DNA from: Novosphingobium sp. FKTRR1
GTDB lineage: Bacteria > Pseudomonadota > Alphaproteobacteria > Sphingomonadales > Sphingomonadaceae
Assembly (NCBI RefSeq): GCF_020404405.1
Contig: NZ_JAIZDA010000011.1
Location: 62,001 to 126,000, forward strand
Length of the DNA: 64,000 nt
Direction of reading: 5' to 3'
The notes beneath the pieces are model-generated. The model made no database searches, was not told the DNA's origin, and saw only the letters and a program-made list of their open reading frames with translations. Shown in pieces: positions 13,508 through 28,338 of this stretch (position 1 is the stretch's first letter; each line of letters begins with the position of its first letter). The position numbers were made by a program, and so were the translations under genes.

Positions 13508-16228
13508 ATGGGGTTGCAGATGGCACGATTTGGTGAACGCAGCAGGGTGATTCTGGCGCAGCAATGCGCCACGGTTGCGTTCATCCGCCCCTGCCTGACA
13601 GCCGCCGCGCTCGCGTTTGCCATGGCTGATCCGGCATTGGCCGCGGCGCAGGACGTGCCTCCGCCCCCGCTTGAGGAAGCGCAGCCCGCGCCCGAGGAAG
13701 CGTTACCGGCCACCGGCGCCGACGCTGCGCCCGAGGCCGTCGGCAATGCCATCGTGGTCACCGCCAACAAGCGCGAACAGACCTTGCAGTCGGCGCCGGT
13801 GGCGGTTTCGGTCACGTCGGCCCAGACGCTGGAGCGCGCGCAGATCCGCGACATCAAGGATCTGACCAGCGTGGTGCCCTCGCTGCGCGTCACCCAGTTG
13901 CAAAGCTCGGCCAACACCAACTTCATCATCCGTGGTTTCGGCAACGGCGCCAACAACGCGGGGATCGAGCCGTCGGTCGGCGTGTTCGTCGACGGCGTGT
14001 ACCGTTCTCGTTCGGCCGCGCAGATCGGCGACTTCCCCGACGTCTCGCGGATCGAGGTGCTGCGCGGGCCGCAATCGACGCTGTTCGGCAAGAACGCTTC
14101 GGTCGGCGTGATCTCGATCGTCACGCAAAAGCCGCAGTTCCGCTGGGGTGGCAATGTCGAGGCGAGCTACGGCAACTACAACGCGCTCGTCGCCAAGGGC
14201 GTGATCACCGGGCCGATTGCCAAGGACGTGGCGTTCAGTCTGGCCGGTGGCTACAACCGTCGCGACGGCTATGTCGACAACCCCGGCACCGGAGGCAAGG
14301 ACAACGACCGCAACCGCTGGTTCGCGCGCGGGCAACTGCTGTGGGAGCCGGCTGGCGGCTTGCGCGTCCGGCTGATCGGCGATGTCAGCCGGATCAATGA
14401 GAACTGCTGCGCGGTGGTCAACTTGCAGCCCTCGGCCGCCACGGCGGCGGTGCGGGCGCTGGGTGGTCAGGTCAACACCGTCGACCAGCGCTTTGCCGAC
14501 CTGACCTATACCAACCGGCCGTCGACCAACGACATTCGCAACTTCGGTCTGTCGGGCCAGATCGACTATGATCTGGGTCCGCTCACTTTCACTTCGATCA
14601 CCGCCTATCGCGGGGTCAATGCCAAGACCGATCAGGATTCGGACTTTACCAGCGCCGACCTGCTTGGCCGCAACTATCAGGATCAGCGCATCCGCACGTT
14701 CACGCAGGAACTGCGGGTGGCGACCAACATCGACGGACCGATCGGGCTGCTCGCCGGGGTGTATTACTTCAACGAGAAGATCGATCAGGCCAACCAGATC
14801 AGTTGGGGCAAGGCTGCGCGCAGCTATGCCGATCTGCTGGTGCAGGGCGCATCGGGCGGAGCGTTCAACCTTGCCGGGCTGGAAAGCACCTTTGGCGCGC
14901 TGTCGGGTCGCAACTATGCCGGGCAGTTCTTTGCCGAAGGGCAGGGACTGAACGAAAAGTACCGGCTGAAGGATGCGGCGTTCTCGGTTTTCGGACAGGC
15001 CGATTTCAAGATCAACAGCCGCGTCACGCTAACCGGCGGGGCCAACTATACCCGCGATACCAAGCACTTCAGCGCCAACGCGCAATCGACCGACGTGTTC
15101 AGCGGGCTGGACATTCCGGCTTTGCGCAACAGTGCGACGCAGTTCGGGGTGGCGCAGTACATCGGGCAGACGTTCTTTGGCGTGCCCCTGGCCTCGGCGG
15201 CACAAGTGGCCGGCGTGGCGGCGGCCAACCCGGCGGGCTTTGCCCAGATCCGCAGCGCGGCTGCGGCCAAGACCGCGCCACTGTTGGGGCTGACACCCTT
15301 GCAATATTTCCCGGCGTTCCTTGGGCTGCCCAACGTCGTGGAGCCGGGCCGGACCAGCGATGGCAAGCTGACCTGGGTGGCGCGGGTGGCGTTCGACTTG
15401 TCGCGCAAGCTGAACCTCTATGCCAGCTACGCCACCGGCTTCAAGGCCAGCTCGATCAACCTGTCGCGCGACAGCCGCCCGTTCGAAAGCGACCGGGGCG
15501 CACTGGCGGCAGCCGGGCTGGAGCAGGTCAACCAGACGTATGGCACCCGCTTTGCAGGACCAGAAAACTCGCGGGTCTATGAGATCGGGTTGAAGGGCGA
15601 TTTCGGCATAGCCACGGCCAATATCGCGTTGTTCCAACAGGAAATTCGTGGCTTCCAGTCCAACGTTTTCACCGGCAAGGGTTTCGTGCTGGCCAATGCC
15701 GGCAAGGAAACGGTCAAGGGCTTTGAGTTCGAAGGCAGCCTGCGCCCCGGCCATGGATTGACCCTGAACGGCGCGTTCACCGTACTCGATGCCAAATACG
15801 ACAGCTTCCTGTTGTCGGCGGTTGGCGACCTTTCTGGCACCAAACCTGCAGGCATTCCGGGCTTTGCCAGCACCATCGGCGCGACCTGGGATGTGGCGGT
15901 GGGCAAGGGCGGCCACCACCTGATCGTGCGCGGCGATTTCCACTATGAATCGCCGCATTCGCTGGAAGAGGGGCTTCCCGCCTTCCTCGACATCTCGACC
16001 GCCGCCGCCGTTGCAGCCGCCGAGCCTTTCCGCGCCGAGATCAAGGAAGTGAACGGCTCGCTGACGTGGGTGATGCCAAGCGGCTTGGAAGTGACCGCAT
16101 GGGGCCGCAACATCACCAACCAGCGCTATCTCGTGAACATCTTCGACAGCCCTGCGCAGATCCACTCGATCTCGGGCTACACCAACCAGCCGCGCACCTG
16201 GGGCGGGACGGTGCGCTACCGCTTCTGA
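13508..16228 (+). CDS. TonB-dependent outer-membrane receptor
   Basis: About 906 residues from the ATG at 13508 (a second ATG at 13520 is equally possible; the frame is open far upstream but that part overlaps typA and is not protein-like). The N-terminus has a hydrophobic signal segment ([15 protein letters not shown]), then a Pro/Ala/Glu linker and a TonB-box-like [12 protein letters not shown]. The plug domain contains [43 protein letters not shown] and [15 protein letters not shown] 22-strand barrel follows, ending in Phe (TVRYRF), as expected for Omp85-dependent insertion. It would import an iron chelate or other nutrient across the outer membrane; the substrate is not evident. Confidence 0.9.
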
Positions 16229-21326: not shown

Positions 21327-22400
21327 TCAGGCTCGCTCGACCGTGCCGTCGCGGACCTGCCAGATGGCGGCCGCGGCGGAAAGGCCGTCGAACGGGGCGA
21401 GTTCGGTGCCGGTCATCCACACTTGCGCGCCCGATGCGCCCAGCCGCTCGTAAAGCGCGGCGCGGCGCAGCGGGTCGAGGTGCGCGGCGATCTCGTCAAG
21501 CAGCAGCAGGCGCGGCCGATCACCGGCTGCTAGGGCTGCATGGGCCAGGACGATGGCGATCAGCATGGCCTTCTGTTCGCCGGTCGAGCAATCGGCAGCC
21601 GGGGCTGCCTTGGCCGAAAGGATCACGTGCAGGTCGTCGCGATGCGGGCCGTTGAGGGTCCGTCCTGCGGCGCGGTCGCGTCGGCGGTTCTGGCGCAAGG
21701 CGTCGCGCAAGGCGTCGGCCATCGGCGGCAGTTCGGCGGCATAAGTGAGCGTCGGACGGGCAAACGGCGCGTCGGGCTGCGCTTCCAGCCCCGCACCCAG
21801 CGCCGCAACCATCGCGCTGCGCGAGGCTGCGATGGTGCTGCCGGTTTCGGCCAGTTGCGCCTCCAGCGCGTCGAGCCAGGCGGGGTCGGGCTCGACCGGA
21901 TCGGTCAGCAGGCGATTGCGTTCGCGCAATGCGGTTTCATAGCGCGCAGCGGTGCGGGCATGGCCTGGCTCGATGGCCAGCACCAGTCGGTCGAGAAAGC
22001 GCCGGCGGCCGCTCGCGCCCTCGCTGAACAGGCGGTCCATCGCCGGGGTCAGCCAGGTCAGAGCGAGCCATTCGGCGAGCCGCGTGGCCGGACCCTCAGC
22101 GCCGTTGATCCGCACGGTGCGGCGGCCCGGCGCTTGCGGACTGGTGGCGGTGCCGATGGCGATTGCGCCGTGCTCGAGTTCGGCAGCCACGGCAAAGCCG
22201 CCGTCGCCTGTGTGACCGGCCATCTCGGCGGCCTGTGCCCGGCGCAAGCCCCGGCCCGGTGCCAGCAGGCTGATCGCTTCAAGGATGTTGGTCTTGCCCG
22301 CGCCATTCTCGCCGACCAGCACATTGAAACGCGCGGTGTCCTCTAGCCGGGTGGCGGCGTGGTTGCGAAAATGGCGCAAGGTCAGGCGGGTAAGGGCCAT
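21327..22400 (-). CDS. recF: DNA replication and repair protein RecF
   Basis: 357 residues, standard length. SMC-like ATPase: Walker [10 protein letters not shown] near residue 31, signature region ([18 protein letters not shown]) and Walker [15 protein letters not shown]-terminus [12 protein letters not shown] is typical. It loads RecA at gaps with RecO and RecR. Here it is not next to dnaA-dnaN or gyrB, unlike in many bacteria. A 29-base gap separates it from pspF upstream in the same direction. Confidence 0.95.
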
Positions 22401-22429
22401 GGGCGGGATTTTGTCTGAAGTGCCGGGCG

Positions 22430-23521
22430 TCAGGCGCTGGCAGCGCGGTCGAGCAAGCCATGCTTTTTCAGGCAGTGGCGCAACTGATCGTAAGTCAGCC
22501 CCAAGCCTTTGGCGGTCTGCCGCTGGTTGAAGCGGTTGCGCGCAAGGTGGTGCTCCAGAATGGCGCGCTCATGCCCGTCGACCGCGCTGCGCAAGTCCTC
22601 GATTGCGTCGAAATCGTGGGTGGGGCCGGTCGATGGGGCAGGTGTCTGTTGGGGCGCCGCAGGCTCGGGCGGAGCGGGCCGCAGGTCGGCCGCCGGGGAG
22701 GCGTGCGGCTGGTCGGGCTGGGCGCCGCGCATCGACGCGGTGGGCTTCCAAGGGCTGTCGAAGGGATCGAATTGCACCGCGCCGACCGGAGCGTCAGGGT
22801 TGTCCCAGCGATAGACCGCGCGCTCCACCACATTGCGCAATTCGCGCACGTTGCCCGGCCATGGCCATGTTTCGAAGGCATCCTGCACGGCGTCGGAAAA
22901 ACCGGGCCAGCGGTCCCACTGCAGTTCGGCGGCCATGCGTCGGCCAAAGTGGTTGGCCAGCACCGCCACGTCACCTTCGCGTACCCGCAGCGGGGGCAGG
23001 GTGATGACCTCGAAACTCAGCCGGTCGAGCAGGTCGGCGCGAAACCTGCCCTGTTCGGCAAGGCGGGGCAGATCCTCGTTGGTGGCCGCCACAATCCGCA
23101 CATCGACCCGCAAGGGGCGGCTGGCGCCGATGCGGGTGACCTCGCCATATTCGACCGCGCGCAGCAAACGCTCCTGCGCGCCCATCGACAGGTTGCCCAG
23201 TTCGTCAAGGAACAGCGTGCCCTTGTCGGCTTCCTCGAACCGACCCGCGCGCGCGCGGGTGGCGCCGGTGAAGGCGCCCGCCTCATGCCCGAACAGTTCC
23301 GCCTCGATCAGGGTTTCGGGCAAAGCGGCGCAATTGAGCGTGACCAGCGGCTCCTGCCAGCGGGTCGACAGGCGGTGGAGCCGTTCGGCGATCAGTTCCT
23401 TGCCGGTGCCGCGCTCGCCGATCACCAGTACGGGGCGGCGCATGGGCGCGGCGCGGCTGGCGCGCTCCACCGCATCGAGGAACGCACCCGATTGTCCGAT
23501 GAACTGGGCTTCGCGATCCAT
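22430..23521 (-). CDS. pspF: Sigma-54 enhancer-binding activator PspF
   Basis: 363 residues. It has no N-terminal sensory domain and begins directly with the AAA+ domain, as PspF does. Visible: Walker A GERGTGKE, sigma-54 contact loop GAFTGA, Walker [11 protein letters not shown], and the arginine finger region in [12 protein letters not shown] Pro-rich linker (about residues 265-305) leads to a Fis-type helix-turn-helix ([28 protein letters not shown]). It drives the divergent psp operon; GGAGGGA precedes the ATG. In the known system PspA binds and inhibits PspF until envelope stress releases it. Confidence 0.93.
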
Positions 23522-23636
23522 CCGTCCCTCCGTTGTACCAACGTGTAGCGTAATCCGCCAAGGTTGCGCAAGAATTCCCAGCCATATTCGCCGAGCTTAT
23601 GGGCTGAAATGGCGGAAATCCGTGCTTTCGCAGGTT

Positions 23637-23652
23637 TGGCACACCCTTTGCT
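23637..23652 (+). promoter_or_regulatory. Sigma-54 (-24/-12) promoter of the psp operon
   Basis: TGGCAC, five bases, TTGCT: an exact match to the sigma-54 core, with GG at 23638-23639 and GC at 23650-23651. It is divergent from pspF, which encodes the matching activator. A TCCGCCA/TGGCGGA pair (23554 and 23610) upstream is a candidate PspF enhancer site. The first downstream gene starts at 23710. Confidence 0.9.
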
Positions 23653-23709
23653 ATACCATGGGCAACACCACTGGACGCCGCCTTCGAGCGAAACCCACGG
23701 AGACCGACC

Positions 23710-23883
23710 ATGTACACCGCCCGCTTCTTTTCGACCCCGCTTGGCCGCGCCGCGCTGGTCAGCATCCTCGCTCTGGCGGCGCTCAACTGCATCGCGCTCA
23801 CCCGCCAGATCAACAATGGCCAGATCGACCTCGTGCCGCATGTCTATGCTTCGGCCGCAGCGATCACCGGCGAGCCCGCTTGA
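23710..23883 (+). CDS. 57-aa single-helix membrane protein, first gene of the psp operon
   Basis: ATG 23710 is preceded by GGAG at 8 bases and lies 58 bases after the sigma-54 promoter. The product begins MYTARFFSTPLGRAAL and has one hydrophobic helix (ALVSILALAALNCIAL) with a short polar tail ending HVYASAAAITGEPA. I do not recognise a family. Position directly behind the sigma-54 promoter and ahead of pspA makes it a stress-induced inner-membrane peptide. It was easy to miss because of its size. Confidence 0.7.
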   Translation: MYTARFFSTPLGRAALVSILALAALNCIALTRQINNGQIDLVPHVYASAAAITGEPA

Positions 23884-24029
23884 CCATGGTGCTCGAACCC
23901 GTATCCAACGGGGGTCGCCCCCATTCGCGCTTCGACAGCGAAGTCGAGGGGCTGCGCCAGAGGGCCGAGTTTTCCACTTCACCGGGTGCGACCGGCCAAT
24001 CGCGCCCCACCACGTACGGAGTCAACCTG

Positions 24030-24716
24030 ATGGGCATCTTCTCGCGGACGCGCGACATCATTGCCGCCAATTTCAACGACCTGCTCGACAAGGCGGATGA
24101 TCCGTCCAAGATGATCCGGATGATCATCATGGAGATGGAAGAAACGCTGGTCGAAGTTCGGGCCTCGGCGGCGCGCACCATTGCCGACCAGAAGGAGATG
24201 CTCCGCCACGTCGCCAAGCTGCAAGGACTGCAGGCCGACTGGTCGGACAAGGCGCAACTGGCGCTGTCCAAGAACCGCGAGGATCTGGCGCGTGCAGCGC
24301 TGGTCGAGCGCCAGAAGGCGACCGACATGGCCGACCAGCTCAAGTCCGAAGTGACGGTGCTGGATGATGCGATGCGCGCCTATGAGGCCGACATCGAAAA
24401 GTTGCAGACCCGTCTGCGCGAAGCTCGCAGTCGGCAGACCGCCATCGCCGCCCGGCTCGAAAGCGCCGAGAACCGCGTGCGGCTGCGCAGCCTGCTGACC
24501 AATGAGCGGGTGGACGAGGCGCTGGCCCGCTTCGACCAGCTCGAACGTCGGGTGGACTATGCCGAAGGTCGCGCCGATGCGTTGAACCTGGCTGAAAAGT
24601 CGACGCCGTCGCTGGCCGATGAGATCGCCGCGCTGGCCGGGCAGGACAAGATCGACGAGGAACTGGCCGCGATGAAACGTGCGCTGGGCAAGTCCGACCA
24701 GAACGGGGAAGGCTGA
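24030..24716 (+). CDS. pspA: Phage shock protein A (IM30/ESCRT-III family)
   Basis: 228 residues from the ATG at 24030 (MGIFSRTRDIIAANFND), preceded by ACGGAG; the longer open frame upstream is not used because the MGIFSR start is the family's. Nearly all helical with long coiled coil: the amphipathic N-terminal helix, DPSKMIRMIIMEMEETLVEVR, and heptads through SAENRVRLRSLL to the end. PspA assembles on damaged inner membrane and also restrains PspF. Followed 3 bases later by pspB. Confidence 0.95.
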   Translation: MGIFSRTRDIIAANFNDLLDKADDPSKMIRMIIMEMEETLVEVRASAARTIADQKEMLRHVAKLQGLQADWSDKAQLALSKNREDLARAALVERQKATDMADQLKSEVTVLDDAMRAYEADIEKLQTRLREARSRQTAIAARLESAENRVRLRSLLTNERVDEALARFDQLERRVDYAEGRADALNLAEKSTPSLADEIAALAGQDKIDEELAAMKRALGKSDQNGEG

Positions 24717-24719
24717 GCC

Positions 24720-25043
24720 GTGGAGGACATTCTTGTTCCGATCGGCGTCACGGCCATGCTGTTCGTCGCGCTGCCGTGGGTCATCCTGCATTACGTCACG
24801 CGCTGGAAAACCGCCGCCACCCTGACCTCGGGCGATGAGGCGCTGCTGGAGGAGCTGTATCAGCTTGCTCGCCGCCTTGACGAGCGGATGGACACGGTCG
24901 AGCGGCTGGTGGCGGCCGACAACCCGGACTTCCGCCCGGCGCGCGTGCTGGCCGACAAGGATACCGACAATCAGAAGCTGCGCGAGCTGGACCGTCTGCT
25001 CGCCGAGACACGCCTGGCCGACAAAGGGGGGATCAGCAAATGA
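24720..25043 (+). CDS. pspB: Phage shock protein B-like bitopic membrane protein
   Basis: 107 residues with GTG start, 3 bases after pspA. One N-terminal helix (VPIGVTAMLFVALPWVILHYVTRW) is followed by a cytoplasmic helix with LARRLDERMDTVERLVAADNPDFR, close to the PspB C-terminal pattern. An extra 30-residue tail makes it longer than enterobacterial PspB (about 74 residues). It acts with PspC to sense envelope stress and recruit PspA. Stop overlaps the pspC start. Confidence 0.85.
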   Translation: MEDILVPIGVTAMLFVALPWVILHYVTRWKTAATLTSGDEALLEELYQLARRLDERMDTVERLVAADNPDFRPARVLADKDTDNQKLRELDRLLAETRLADKGGISK

Positions 25044-25414
25044 GCGCTGTGCGGACGCGGTTCTATCGCGACAAGGTCAATGGCAAGTTCATGGGCGTGT
25101 GCGCCGGGATTGCCGACTACACCGGGATCGATGCCTTGTGGGTGCGGCTGGGGTTCCTGATCGCCGCCTTCTCGATGGGCTGGCCGTTCCTGATCTACTT
25201 CGCCTTTGGCATGCTGGCGGACAAGAAGCCCGCTTCGTTGTACGGCGACCGGCAGGAAGAGCGTTTCTGGCAAGGCGTGCGCCAGTCACCGGCGCGCACC
25301 GCCCGCGAAGTGCGCTCCAGTTTCCGTGACATCGACCGCCGTCTGGCCGAAGTCGAACACTTCTATGTTTCGGGCAATCCGCGCCTTTCGGCCGAGATCG
25401 AAAAGCTGCGCTGA
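25040..25414 (+). CDS. pspC: Phage shock protein C
   Basis: 124 residues. PspC domain at the N-terminus: FYRDKVNGKFMGVCAGIADYTGIDALWVRLGF, then a membrane helix (LIAAFSMGWPFLIYFAFGMLA). The C-terminal half is a cytoplasmic or periplasmic helical tail (SFRDIDRRLAEVEHFYVSGNPRLSAEIEKLR) of the leucine-zipper type known in PspC. ATGA overlap with pspB indicates coupled expression of the BC pair. Confidence 0.92.
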   Translation: MSAVRTRFYRDKVNGKFMGVCAGIADYTGIDALWVRLGFLIAAFSMGWPFLIYFAFGMLADKKPASLYGDRQEERFWQGVRQSPARTAREVRSSFRDIDRRLAEVEHFYVSGNPRLSAEIEKLR

Positions 25415-25470
25415 ACCCCGGGTCGCCGGGGCAAAAATGGCCAAGGGCTTGGCCGACAGGGGAAATCACC

Positions 25471-25761
25471 ATGGACCACGGTACATTGGCGCTGCTGATA
25501 CCGCTTGCGCCGTTCATGCTGGGGGGCTTTGCCATCTGGATGCGACACCAGCGCAAGATGGAAGAGATCCGCGCCCGCTCCACCGTCGACATCGCCGGGC
25601 AACATGCCCTCCAGACTCAGGCGCTCGAAGAGCGGGTACGGGTGCTGGAACGCATCGTCACCGACAAGGGTTACGACGTGGCGGCACAGATTGAGGCTTT
25701 GCGCGATGTGCGTCGGCTCGATGATACCTCGGCCACTGAGCAGAGCGGGAGGGTGCAATGA
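25471..25761 (+). CDS. PspB-like small membrane-anchored coiled-coil protein 1
   Basis: 96 residues with good ribosome site (AGGGGAAA). N-terminal membrane helix (LALLIPLAPFMLGGFAIWM), then a charged helix with EERVRVLERIVTDKGYD and QIEALRD. The motif ERxxxLERIVTD plus IEALR recurs in the next three genes and resembles the pspB segment DERMDTVERLVAADNP. It is 56 bases after pspC and overlaps the next gene by 4, so the set is probably the distal part of the psp operon. No function is established. Confidence 0.75.
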   Translation: MDHGTLALLIPLAPFMLGGFAIWMRHQRKMEEIRARSTVDIAGQHALQTQALEERVRVLERIVTDKGYDVAAQIEALRDVRRLDDTSATEQSGRVQ

Positions 25762-26102
25762 GCCTGCCTGCTGAAGTGATCACGCAATTGCCGCTGGTCG
25801 GCATCGGTATCGTGGTCGCCCCCCTGGCGTGGGTGGCAGGGTGGGTCCATCTGACCCGCATGCGCATCAAGCACGGCTATCCGCTTGATGGCGTTTGGGG
25901 GCAGGCGCTCCATCCCAAGGGGCCCGATGTCGCAACGCAGGAACGGCTGGCGCTGCTGACCGGCGAGAACGCCCAGTTGCGTGCGGAACTGGGCGCGGTG
26001 AAGGACCGGCTCGCCAATGTCGAACGCATTGTCACCGACAGCGGCTATTCGCTGACCCGCGAAATCGAGGCGCTGCGGCTGGGCGGAGGTGCCCCGCAAT
26101 GA
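25758..26102 (+). CDS. PspB-like small membrane-anchored coiled-coil protein 2
   Basis: 114 residues. N-terminal helix (LPLVGIGIVVAPLAWVAGWVHL), a middle segment rich in Gly and Pro (HGYPLDGVWGQALHPKG) not present in the other paralogues, then a coiled coil with KDRLANVERIVTDSGY and EIEALRL. ATGA overlap on both sides ties it to its neighbours. Likely inner-membrane, with the coiled coil in the cytoplasm by analogy to PspB. Confidence 0.72.
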   Translation: MSLPAEVITQLPLVGIGIVVAPLAWVAGWVHLTRMRIKHGYPLDGVWGQALHPKGPDVATQERLALLTGENAQLRAELGAVKDRLANVERIVTDSGYSLTREIEALRLGGGAPQ

Positions 26103-26398
26103 GCCCGGTTGAGCTGCTGGCGCTGGCGTTCATCGTCGTCGGGCTGCCGGTGACGCTGGGCATCGGCGGCGATGTCTACAAGCGCCGCCTGGCCTTCAAG
26201 GAGCGGCAACTGGACATGCTGTCGCGCCAGAACGCGGCGCAGGCCGCGCAAGCGGCGGCCCACACCGAACGGCTTGAACAGCGGCTGCGCGTGCTCGAAC
26301 GCATCGTCACCGACCGCAGCATGGGACTTGCCGCGCAGATCGAGGACTTGCGCGAACCGGTCGCAGAGCATCGCGCAGAGGATCTCAAGGTCAATTGA
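26099..26398 (+). CDS. PspB-like small membrane-anchored coiled-coil protein 3
   Basis: 99 residues. N-terminal helix (VELLALAFIVVGLPVTLGI) is followed by a Lys/Arg stretch and an Ala/Gln-rich helix (MLSRQNAAQAAQAAAHTERL) leading into EQRLRVLERIVTDRSMG and QIEDLRE. Starts in an ATGA overlap with the previous gene. Same architecture as its neighbours. Confidence 0.72.
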   Translation: MSPVELLALAFIVVGLPVTLGIGGDVYKRRLAFKERQLDMLSRQNAAQAAQAAAHTERLEQRLRVLERIVTDRSMGLAAQIEDLREPVAEHRAEDLKVN

Positions 26399-26441
26399 GG
26401 CCGCGTTTCGCGCGCGACCAAACGAGTTGGAGTTGCTGAAA

Positions 26442-26681
26442 ATGAGTTTCTGGACTGCTGTGGTCGCGATCGTTGCGATCATCGCCATCGCCAATTTGCG
26501 CCGCCATCGCCTGCAAGCGGGCTGGGACCGGACGCTGCCGGTCGCTGGAACGGACAATGTGGCGCTCGAACGCGAAGTGATCGAACTGCGCCGCCGGGTC
26601 GAAGTGCTCGAACGCATCATCACCGACCAGCGCGGCAGCCAGAAGCTGGCCGACGAGATCGAGGCGCTCCGCCAGAATTGA
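26442..26681 (+). CDS. PspB-like small membrane-anchored coiled-coil protein 4
   Basis: 79 residues, the shortest and closest in size to classical PspB. Start ATG 26442 with TTGGAG upstream; the open frame extends further 5' but that part overlaps gene 3 and lacks a start signal. N-terminal helix (FWTAVVAIVAIIAIANL), then RRRVEVLERIITDQRGS and DEIEALRQN at the very end. Separated from gene 3 by 43 bases. Confidence 0.72.
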   Translation: MSFWTAVVAIVAIIAIANLRRHRLQAGWDRTLPVAGTDNVALEREVIELRRRVEVLERIITDQRGSQKLADEIEALRQN

Positions 26682-26745
26682 AGGCAATGGGGGCAGTATG
26701 CGCCCCAAGGCTTGAGGCTGGGCGCGGCTCTGCTAAAGCCGCGCG

Positions 26746-27156
26746 ATGCGCAGCCTCGATGACATCCGCGAAGAATATGAATTCCTTGACGGCGATGAAC
26801 GCTATCGCCTGTTGATCGAACTGGGGCGCGAGCTGGAACCGATGCCCGATGCGCTGAAAACCGATGCCACACTGGTGCGCGGCTGTTCGGCCAGCGTCTG
26901 GGTCTATCCGGTCCAGCAGGCCGAGGCCGGATTGCACTTTCTGGCCGACAGCAATGCCGCGATCACCAAGGGCATCGTCGCGCTGGTGCTGGCCGCAGTG
27001 CAGGATCGCCCGGCGACCGAAGTCGCGCAGACCGATATCGCCGAACGGCTGGCTCCGTTCGACTTGAAGAACCAGCTTTCGTCAAACCGCACCCAGGGCG
27101 TGCCCAACATGATCGCGCTGGTCCGCGAACATGCGGCGCGGCTGGCCGCCGGGTAG
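26746..27156 (+). CDS. sufE: Cysteine desulfuration protein SufE
   Basis: 136 residues. SufE fold with the acceptor cysteine in LVRGCSASVWVYP (about residue 47), which takes the persulfide from SufS for Fe-S assembly, and the C-terminal NQLSSNRTQGVPNMI segment typical of the family. It stands apart from a suf operon here. No ribosome site is visible; an 8-bp GC hairpin (26722-26744) ends one base before the ATG and may end the upstream transcript or mask the start. Confidence 0.92.
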   Translation: MRSLDDIREEYEFLDGDERYRLLIELGRELEPMPDALKTDATLVRGCSASVWVYPVQQAEAGLHFLADSNAAITKGIVALVLAAVQDRPATEVAQTDIAERLAPFDLKNQLSSNRTQGVPNMIALVREHAARLAAG

Positions 27157-27168
27157 GCGCTGACGACG

Positions 27169-27516
27169 ATGCGCCCGCTCTGGACCCTTGCGGGCCTGAC
27201 CTTTGTCGGCATCGGCGCGGTGGGGGCGTTCCTGCCCTTGCTGCCGACGGTGCCGTTCCTGCTGCTGGCGCTGTTCTGCTTTGCGCGGGGCAATCCGGCG
27301 TGGGAGCAACGCTTGCTCGACCACCCCAAGTGGGGGCCGCCGCTGGTGGAATGGCGCCAGCGCCGGGCTATCCCGCGCCGCGCCAAGATCGCCGCGCTAT
27401 CGACGATGGCCGCTTCGGTGGCGATCACCGCGATCTCGCTGGGCTGGCCCTGGGTGCTGATCCCCGCCGGAGTCATGGCGCTGAGCGGATCATGGATATG
27501 GACCCGTGCGGAATAA
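27169..27516 (+). CDS. YbaN/DUF454 family membrane protein
   Basis: 115 residues with the DUF454 signature: VGAFLPLLPTVPFLLLALFCFARG, then LDHPKWGPPLVEWRQRRAIPRRAK, and C-terminal helices. Inner-membrane protein of unknown function. It follows sufE by 12 bases in the same direction and is probably co-transcribed. Confidence 0.88.
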   Translation: MRPLWTLAGLTFVGIGAVGAFLPLLPTVPFLLLALFCFARGNPAWEQRLLDHPKWGPPLVEWRQRRAIPRRAKIAALSTMAASVAITAISLGWPWVLIPAGVMALSGSWIWTRAE

Positions 27517-27531
27517 TGGGGGCGCACTGAA

Positions 27532-28338
27532 GTGGCCGGAATGAAGATCGCCGCGCTGTATCGCTATCCGGTCAAGTCGCTGGGTGCGCAGGAGCTGGCC
27601 GAGGTTGCGGTCACGCCGCGCGGGCTTGCGGCGGATCGCCGTTGGCTCGTGACCAATCCGCAAGGGCGCTTCGTCACACGGCGCGAACTGTCCGGCATGG
27701 CGCTGATCGGCGCGGAGCATGAAGATGGCGTGCTCATCCTGCGCGACAACCAAGGCGCCGCCTTGCGCGTGGCCGAACCCGTGGCGGACACCGCACCGCA
27801 GACAGTTACCGTCTGGCGCGACCCGGTCGCGGCCCTTCCTGCCGGGCACGACGCCGACGACTGGTTGAGCGAACGATTGGGGCGGCCCTTGCGCCTGTTC
27901 CATATGCCCGATGCATCGCACCGTGCGGTCGATCCCGACTATGGCGCTGCGGGAGACGAGGTCAGCTTCGCCGATGGCTTCCCGCTGCTGATCACCACGA
28001 CCGCCTCGCTCGCCGCGCTCAACGCGCGGCTGGACGATCCGGTGGAAATGGCGCGGTTCCGTCCCAACATCGTGCTTGATGGTGTGGATGAGGCTTTTGC
28101 CGAGGATGGCTGGCGGGCTTTGCAAATCGGCGGTTTGCGGTTGCGCGTGGTCAAGCCGTGCACCCGCTGCGTGGTCACCACGCAGCATCCGCTGACGGGC
28201 GAGTCGCTGGGCAATGAACCCTTGCGCACGTTGAAGGCGATGGGCCGGGTGTGGGAACGCCAGCCAATCTTCGGCCAGAATGCCATTCCCGATGGGGCAG
28301 GGCGCATCGCGGTGGGCGATGCGGTAGCCGTCCTCTAA
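27532..28338 (+). CDS. MOSC domain protein (YcbX/MOSC_N type)
   Basis: 268 residues from GTG 27532, which has GGGGGCG at a suitable distance; ATG 27541 is the alternative. The N-terminal MOSC_N barrel (ALYRYPVKSLGAQELAEVAV, GLAADRRWLV) is followed by a MOSC domain with the conserved cysteine in KPCTRCVVTTQHPLTGE and RPNIVLDG. MOSC proteins carry sulfur or reduce N-hydroxylated compounds with Mo cofactor (YcbX, mARC). Without a ferredoxin domain it would need a separate electron donor. The stop overlaps the convergent gene. Confidence 0.87.
   Translation: MAGMKIAALYRYPVKSLGAQELAEVAVTPRGLAADRRWLVTNPQGRFVTRRELSGMALIGAEHEDGVLILRDNQGAALRVAEPVADTAPQTVTVWRDPVAALPAGHDADDWLSERLGRPLRLFHMPDASHRAVDPDYGAAGDEVSFADGFPLLITTTASLAALNARLDDPVEMARFRPNIVLDGVDEAFAEDGWRALQIGGLRLRVVKPCTRCVVTTQHPLTGESLGNEPLRTLKAMGRVWERQPIFGQNAIPDGAGRIAVGDAVAVL

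Follow-up and report, generated by a model that had tools for sequence, protein, structure and literature searches.

An ordered array of small membrane proteins with PspC-like tails behind pspABC in Novosphingobium and its relatives

The window analysed here, a stretch of 64,000 nucleotides from Novosphingobium sp. FKTRR1, contains a psp locus in which pspA, pspB and pspC are followed by four short additional genes, referred to below as extra genes 1-4 (Table 1). Its pspA is 90% identical to that of Novosphingobium capsulatum. The four short genes that the original prediction had placed behind pspABC were all found as open reading frames on the + strand. Several overlaps of 4 bases had also been announced, and they occur between genes 1 and 2 and between genes 2 and 3, as well as between pspB and pspC, the remaining junction (3/4) being a gap of 43 bases. 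The four proteins have in common a core, R-x3-[LV]-ERI[VI]TD...IExLR, at the end of the coiled coil. It retains the ERI[VI]TD part of the proposed motif ERxxxxERI(V/I)TD, whereas the first glutamate of that motif is not general (the position is E, D, Q, R in genes 1-4), and the proposed EALR ending does not hold for gene 3, which has IEDLR.

Table 1. Features of the psp locus, in positions of the window
Feature	Coordinates	Strand	Remarks
pspF, sigma-54 activator	22430..23521	-	TIGR02974, 474.6 bits against a cut-off of 443.55; divergent
sigma-54 promoter TGGCACACCCTTTGCT	23637..23652	+	0 mismatches
small conserved ORF	23711..23884	+	57 aa, one hydrophobic stretch; between promoter and pspA
pspA	24030..24716	+	PF04012 and TIGR02977 over curated cut-offs
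pspB	24720..25043	+	PF06667 and TIGR02976 over curated cut-offs
pspC	25040..25414	+	PF04024 and TIGR02978 over curated cut-offs; C-terminal tail RRLAEVEHFYVSGNPRLSAEIEKLR
extra gene 1, class A	25471..25761	+	96 aa; membrane helix at about 6-24, coiled coil predicted cytoplasmic, PspC-like tail
extra gene 2, class B	25758..26102	+	114 aa; layout as gene 1, with a GYPL..WG insert after the helix
extra gene 3, class C	26099..26398	+	99 aa
extra gene 4, class D	26442..26681	+	79 aa; MSFWTA start, tail lengthened between ITD and EIEALR
sufE	26746..27156	+	PF02657 over cut-off; usual right-hand neighbour

A search with pspA alone yielded at least 545 loci, and the best 80 served as the relatives' loci for comparison; being the best matches, they are close relatives, yet they were not picked for the presence of the array. 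They include Novosphingobium, Erythrobacter, Porphyrobacter and Qipengyuania. The gene sufE, present in 74 of these 80 psp loci, is probably outside the psp system. The small ORF at 23711-23884 belongs to no Pfam or NCBIfam family and gave plain blastp matches in none of the 80 relatives; a profile built from the same loci in which the ORF was then counted matches in 77 of 81 loci, the window among them, and of the four loci without a match three lie at contig ends. Its relatives are about 50-70 aa long, the Novosphingobium form being typically MYTARFFST.LGRAAL.SI.AM. Possibly the psp operon begins with this ORF, as a gene that has been overlooked.

Genes of the array lie directly behind pspC in 79 of the 80 relatives' loci, with one to six genes each; the 80th (L015) ends at a contig edge just past pspA and was left out of the array counts. 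One gene is present in 1 locus, two in 6, three in 20, four in 27, five in 21 and six in 4. Since 79 of 80 psp loci hold such genes at the same place, the array is not due to chance. The class analysis covers 313 proteins, one of the 314 called genes (the second gene of L004, called at 209 aa) having been dropped; in L056 the fourth gene reaches the end of its contig. Four classes were obtained by clustering and then by class profiles, represented in the window by gene 1 (A), gene 2 (B), gene 3 (C) and gene 4 (D). Six proteins, four of them previously unassigned, moved in the first round of assignment and none thereafter, with a median margin of 68 bits for profiles made from the same proteins. 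Class A comes first in 79 of 80 arrays (window included), and class D is the last of classes A-D in all 72 arrays that have it; the commonest orders among the 80 arrays are ABCD (23), ABBCD (15) and ABD (12). A fifth class, E, of about 70-92 aa and with an end like LKERIRKLEAIASGV, follows 73 of 80 arrays at E <1e-15, the profiles of classes A-E having been built from the loci in which they were then counted. A class E gene was seen just behind the array in L009, L016, L038 and others; the array of the window lacks one. Gaps of -1 (108 junctions) and -4 (73 junctions) occur between the relatives' genes, counts which partly reflect the choice of starts, because the script favoured overlaps when setting the relatives' gene starts.

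In a quick tree of 106 rows, class A (SH-aLRT 92), class B (81), class D (99) and PspB (98) each form one side of a branch, class C needs 4 changes and the copies found elsewhere in genomes need 5; the deep forks of this unrooted tree are unsure because the alignment has 90 columns. No extra protein is placed inside the PspB branch. Judged by class order and tree, the array is an old and ordered one and not a recent expansion. Recent tandem duplication of pspB was considered and is rejected on the class order, the tree and the profile comparisons given below.

Hydropathy indicates a single N-terminal membrane helix in all four proteins. Lysine and arginine residues are more numerous after the helix than before it in 310 of the 313 extra proteins (mean 3.32 versus 0.05), the exceptions being two ties and one protein without a helix by the threshold used; the tail should therefore be cytoplasmic. 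For gene 1, AlphaFold2 (63-row alignment, monomer prediction) returned one helix spanning residues 3-94, with a mean pLDDT of 90 and a pTM of 0.44. The claim of one N-terminal helix and a coiled coil per gene is thus supported by hydropathy in all four proteins and by the AlphaFold2 helix for gene 1. Genes 1-4 have, by prediction, the layout of PspB, namely an N-terminal helix followed by a cytoplasmic coiled coil; the structural similarity to PspB on which the original prediction had staked itself is therefore supported as a predicted single-pass membrane coiled-coil layout. A sequence search of solved structures found no relative of PspB or PspC, the best matches of the family profile there being KcsA chains.

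A sigma-54 site is present upstream of pspA in 76 of 76 loci (window included), with agreement at 10 (22 loci) or 11 (54 loci) of 11 positions. Around gene 1 (650 bases, 75 loci) the best sigma-54 score is 9, reached in 2 of 75 loci and exceeded in none. Neither a sigma-70-type promoter nor a + strand terminator was found in 22400-27600 by a scan that is weak on alphaproteobacterial promoter types. Because the promoter is conserved in all 76 loci, no site as good occurs at gene 1, and the scan returned no sigma-70 promoter or terminator, genes 1-4 are likely co-expressed with pspABC from the PspF/sigma-54 promoter. The idea of a single gene row linked to sigma-54 accordingly survives, with a perfect promoter that is conserved in relatives, and the separate promoter before 25471 that would have spoken against it was found neither by sigma-54 scoring nor by the sigma-70 scan, with its poor coverage of alphaproteobacterial types. 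A hairpin in the gap between pspC and gene 1 (25439-25454) was also considered as a conserved element and set aside: the gaps of the 79 relatives fold at 0 to -12.1 kcal/mol, a GTCCTGAGGGGGAC-type hairpin is present in some, and no stem common to all of them was seen. A second perfect match to the sigma-54 consensus lies at 15541-15556, within long overlapping ORFs; it may be due to chance, because the whole window has 23 sigma-54 matches with at most 2 mismatches, fewer than the mean of 37 in shuffles.

With a family profile made from 63 members, a search of 246 genomes of the order gave matches in 227 at E 0.01. All 163 genomes of the own family (taken as GTDB Sphingomonadaceae) match at E 1.4e-11 or better, as do, at E 0.01, 64 of 83 genomes from other families of the order, 8 of which have a best match above E 1e-6 and may contain PspB alone. 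Ten genomes from these other families were re-examined and 7 have one or two strong matches; in G004, G007, G013 and G046 an additional weaker match is PspB itself. Copies in the other families lie behind pspC (L114, L124) or elsewhere (L115, L116, L117, L123). Among 289 genomes drawn from the class, 31 match, those outside the own family all at E 1e-5 or worse except G426 (E 2.4e-14); of three weak class-level matches examined, one (L141) is PspB itself, the other two (L140, L143) being additional PspB-like genes of a psp operon. One family from a different class of the phylum was also covered: of its 118 genomes, 91 gave between one and three matches. Three of 72,556 plasmid records (from Photobacterium, Pseudoalteromonas and Sphingomonas parapaucimobilis) match one such protein, with 33-37% identity, and since Photobacterium and Pseudoalteromonas are among them, the presence of Gammaproteobacteria among the outside relatives is supported. 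Class C is the best-scoring class for 35 of the 54 copies outside arrays, with a lead of at least 5 bits in 30 cases.

In a set of 299 genomes of the phylum, PspC (E 1e-10 or better) is encoded in 27 of the 30 genomes that have the family, compared with 44 of 299 overall (Fisher p 1e-23, relatedness ignored). The three genomes with the family and without PspC are weak matches (E 9e-5 to 1.5e-4), one being PspB itself. The family is absent from 17 of the 44 PspC-bearing genomes, so the Psp system works without it. Regarding expression of the outside copies, sigma-54-like sites at 10 of 11 positions are present upstream of 3 of 21 copies, with two more at 9. A second, overlapping set comprised 30 copies from a single family belonging to a different class; of these, 2 reach 10, as compared with 1 of 120 control windows, and 11 have no sigma-54 candidate. 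PspF control of the outside copies was therefore not retained as a general rule, few sites being at 10 of 11 and most copies having none. Upstream sigma-54-like sites at 10 of 11 were observed for L171, L172, L173, L251 and L268, an MN[LM]T.. subgroup from another class; judging from these sites, such copies would be unlinked PspF targets like pspG.

None of genes 1-4 is over any Pfam or NCBIfam family cut-off, those of PspB and PspC included, and none matches PF04024, the N-terminal PspC domain, at E up to 1. Gene 3 is the only one of the four to match PF06667 and TIGR02976 at E up to 1 (PF06667: E 0.0034, 17.8 bits, cut-off 25.6; TIGR02976: 15.9 bits, cut-off 51.7). Tail matches to TIGR02978, below its cut-off, were obtained for gene 2 (E 0.0011) and gene 3 (E 0.0015), and weak matches to NF006993 for genes 1 and 3 (13.1 and 15.3 bits, cut-off 90). 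Among the 63 family members, weak NCBIfam matches are to PspC (28 members), to PspB (22 and 21), to a second PspC model (7) and to other models (3 or fewer each); the commonest Pfam model is that of PspB (PF06667, 10 members, others 3 or fewer), the Pfam model of PspC covering the other end of that protein and not its tail.

Profile-profile comparison (hhalign) of the extra tails with the PspC tail gave 95.3% (E 2.4e-8, 37 columns, up to the tail end), and 96.6% (E 5.9e-10) when query and target were swapped. The comparison with PspB gave 82.8% (E 9.4e-6, 27 columns) and, exchanged, 81.4%. Neither the PspC-tail nor the PspB score was reached by any of 60 column-shuffled versions. Because shuffling breaks the coiled-coil repeat, real coiled-coil proteins were added as controls, with FtsB sequences from 27 of 30 loci and SlyX sequences from 10 of 12; in both directions they gave 24-26% (SlyX), 8-11% (FtsB/DivIC, which also has the layout of a helix and a coiled coil) and 6-8% (PspA). 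On these comparisons the tail of genes 1-4 is of the PspC type (95-97%, against 6-26% for the controls). PspB compared with the PspC tail gave 25% or 72%, depending on which was the query, and because of this dependence on direction one origin of all three tails is only weakly suggested. The family profile also matches KcsA chains at E 4.6e-4, which we read as an effect of composition, so that an E-value of about 1e-4 means little by itself for a protein with a helix and a coiled coil. In the psp loci, 79 of 79 PspC end in [EQKD]I[DEN]xLR, and the I[DEN]xLR end is carried by 308 of the 313 extra proteins, by none of the 54 copies outside arrays and by 2 of 24 other PspC rows, both (L201, L203) from genomes of the own family. 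Since this is one clade, the end shared by PspC and the extra proteins counts as one event; it would be the expected trace of co-adaptation to a shared partner or of common descent. Co-occurrence with PspC and the common tail end were each seen in few clades, and their instances do not count as independent. In another alphaproteobacterial psp operon (L143), two extra small genes lie behind pspC, the product of one having a helix and an end of the PspC type (ERYVTSPEFGLNRQFRDL) and that of the other an end of the PspB type (ERILDAEAPGWR), and it looks as if both tails moved as separate modules. The psp operon of L140 consists of pspA, pspB, a short PspC, an extra PspB-like gene and a second pspC.

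These comparisons bear on the possibility that the extra genes are duplicated and diverged copies of pspB, whose products pair with PspC and PspB as hetero-oligomeric sensors. The layout is that of PspB, with an N-terminal helix, a positively charged flank and a coiled coil encoded in the same operon; weak matches of family members to TIGR02976 (best E 2.3e-6) and PF06667 and the 81-83% score of the tails against PspB point the same way, and a 2024 survey mentions, in one clause, PspB duplicates in the psp operon (e.g. AOL22920.1; Ravi et al. 2024, PMC11237479). However, the PspC tail fits the extra tails better than PspB does, in both directions and over more columns, PspB forms a separate branch, other families of the order have relatives that are encoded away from pspB (G004, G007, G013, G046), and the order of the classes is fixed across genera. 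Furthermore, the extra proteins fall below every PspB cut-off and end like the PspC tail and not with the usual PspB ending (such as ILDAESPDWR). The original view of the array as expanded copies of pspB is therefore not supported, and it appears unlikely that the extra genes are diverged copies whose products pair with PspC and PspB. As for the claim that the extra genes are not part of the described PspABC system, they are indeed beyond the classical set, but extra PspB genes in the pspABC operon had been mentioned in the survey, whose passages considered here contain neither the classes and their order nor the PspC-like tail and the relatives elsewhere. Apart from PMC11237479, nothing on such extra genes was found in the open-licence PMC literature as far as it could be searched, and no prior description was found there of the class order, the PspC-like tail, the shared signature, the fifth class or the outside relatives.

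The closest known counterpart is a fragment of PspC. In brief, work on E. coli and Yersinia indicates, in the parts considered here, that the helix and tail of PspC suffice for PspA binding and, when overproduced, for psp induction. According to the sections of PMC3068692 concerned with this fragment, E. coli PspC40-119 (helix and tail), when overproduced, induces psp without PspB and without a lowered membrane potential; it interacts with PspA, the interaction being positive in one fusion orientation only, and its leucine-zipper mutant does not. The same sections report that the soluble tail PspC69-119 binds PspA only with PspB, that PspC fragments at low level give no support for pIV-dependent (stress-dependent) induction, and that the PspC tail is periplasmic in one topology (PMC3068692). 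The extra proteins resemble PspC40-119 in having one helix, a tail that matches the same profile and, probably, a sigma-54/PspF promoter; they differ from PspC in lacking its N-terminal domain and in occurring as several paralogous classes side by side.

We consider it an even call that the extra proteins are a distinct, old family of single-pass inner-membrane proteins with a PspC-type tail, made with PspABC and providing extra membrane docking for PspA (or binding for PspB). This reading builds on features obtained by computation, namely the genes, their order and conservation, the promoter, the tail similarity, the layout and the predicted topology. A docking or competitor model is proposed because PspC40-119 binds PspA and induces psp, and because the extra proteins share its layout. 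Genes 1-4 would be made together with PspABC from the PspF/sigma-54 promoter, presumably on a single transcript, and their tails, predicted to be cytoplasmic, would most likely bind PspA or the cytoplasmic domain of PspB that otherwise holds the PspC tail. The extra docking sites would then pull PspA off PspF and put it on the membrane; alternatively, the extra proteins would compete for PspB and so free the PspC tail. Either docking or competition would add an input to the PspA-PspF switch, and the class-specific helices and linkers might answer to differing membrane conditions or partners, with a division of sensing among the classes.

A serious rival, if an unlikely one, is that the extra proteins are purely downstream effectors, which anchor or shape PspA assemblies at the membrane without any signalling role. 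PspD and PspG are further products of the PspF regulon, as the extra proteins would be, and to our knowledge they are unrelated to them in sequence. The effector view agrees with the promoter probably shared with pspABC and with the existence of several classes, and it has a precedent in PspG, an inner-membrane effector under PspF control that is dispensable for psp induction, as presented in PMC3068692; against it, the PspC-like tail fits PspA binding equally, and nothing in the sequences separates an effector from a regulator. It is very improbable that the likeness to PspB and PspC is convergent, in small membrane coiled-coil proteins merely sharing the psp promoter: the KcsA match shows that composition can account for a hit between proteins with a helix and a coiled coil, but the FtsB, SlyX and PspA controls are far lower in both directions, the family is linked to PspC-bearing genomes (27 of 30) and the IExLR end is common to the PspC of the same lineage.

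Returning to the docking model, a wider form of it can be put forward more tentatively, as possible but short of probable: the free-standing family, a PspC tail on a membrane helix, could be a general Psp component in Alpha- and Gammaproteobacteria, and in Sphingomonadaceae it could have become an ordered series of as many as six or seven PspA docking proteins with the tail signature of PspC, which split sensing into channels feeding one PspA-PspF switch. The Novosphingobium lineage may have widened its membrane-damage alarm by means of extra docking proteins. A lineage with several natural versions of a helix and a PspC-like tail, kept in fixed order, offers ready-made variants of the switching element, with which the PspA-binding part and the sensing part could be told apart by direct comparison. 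Under the docking model, several small proteins without a name in a large bacterial family, and the related ones elsewhere, would also gain a suggested function.
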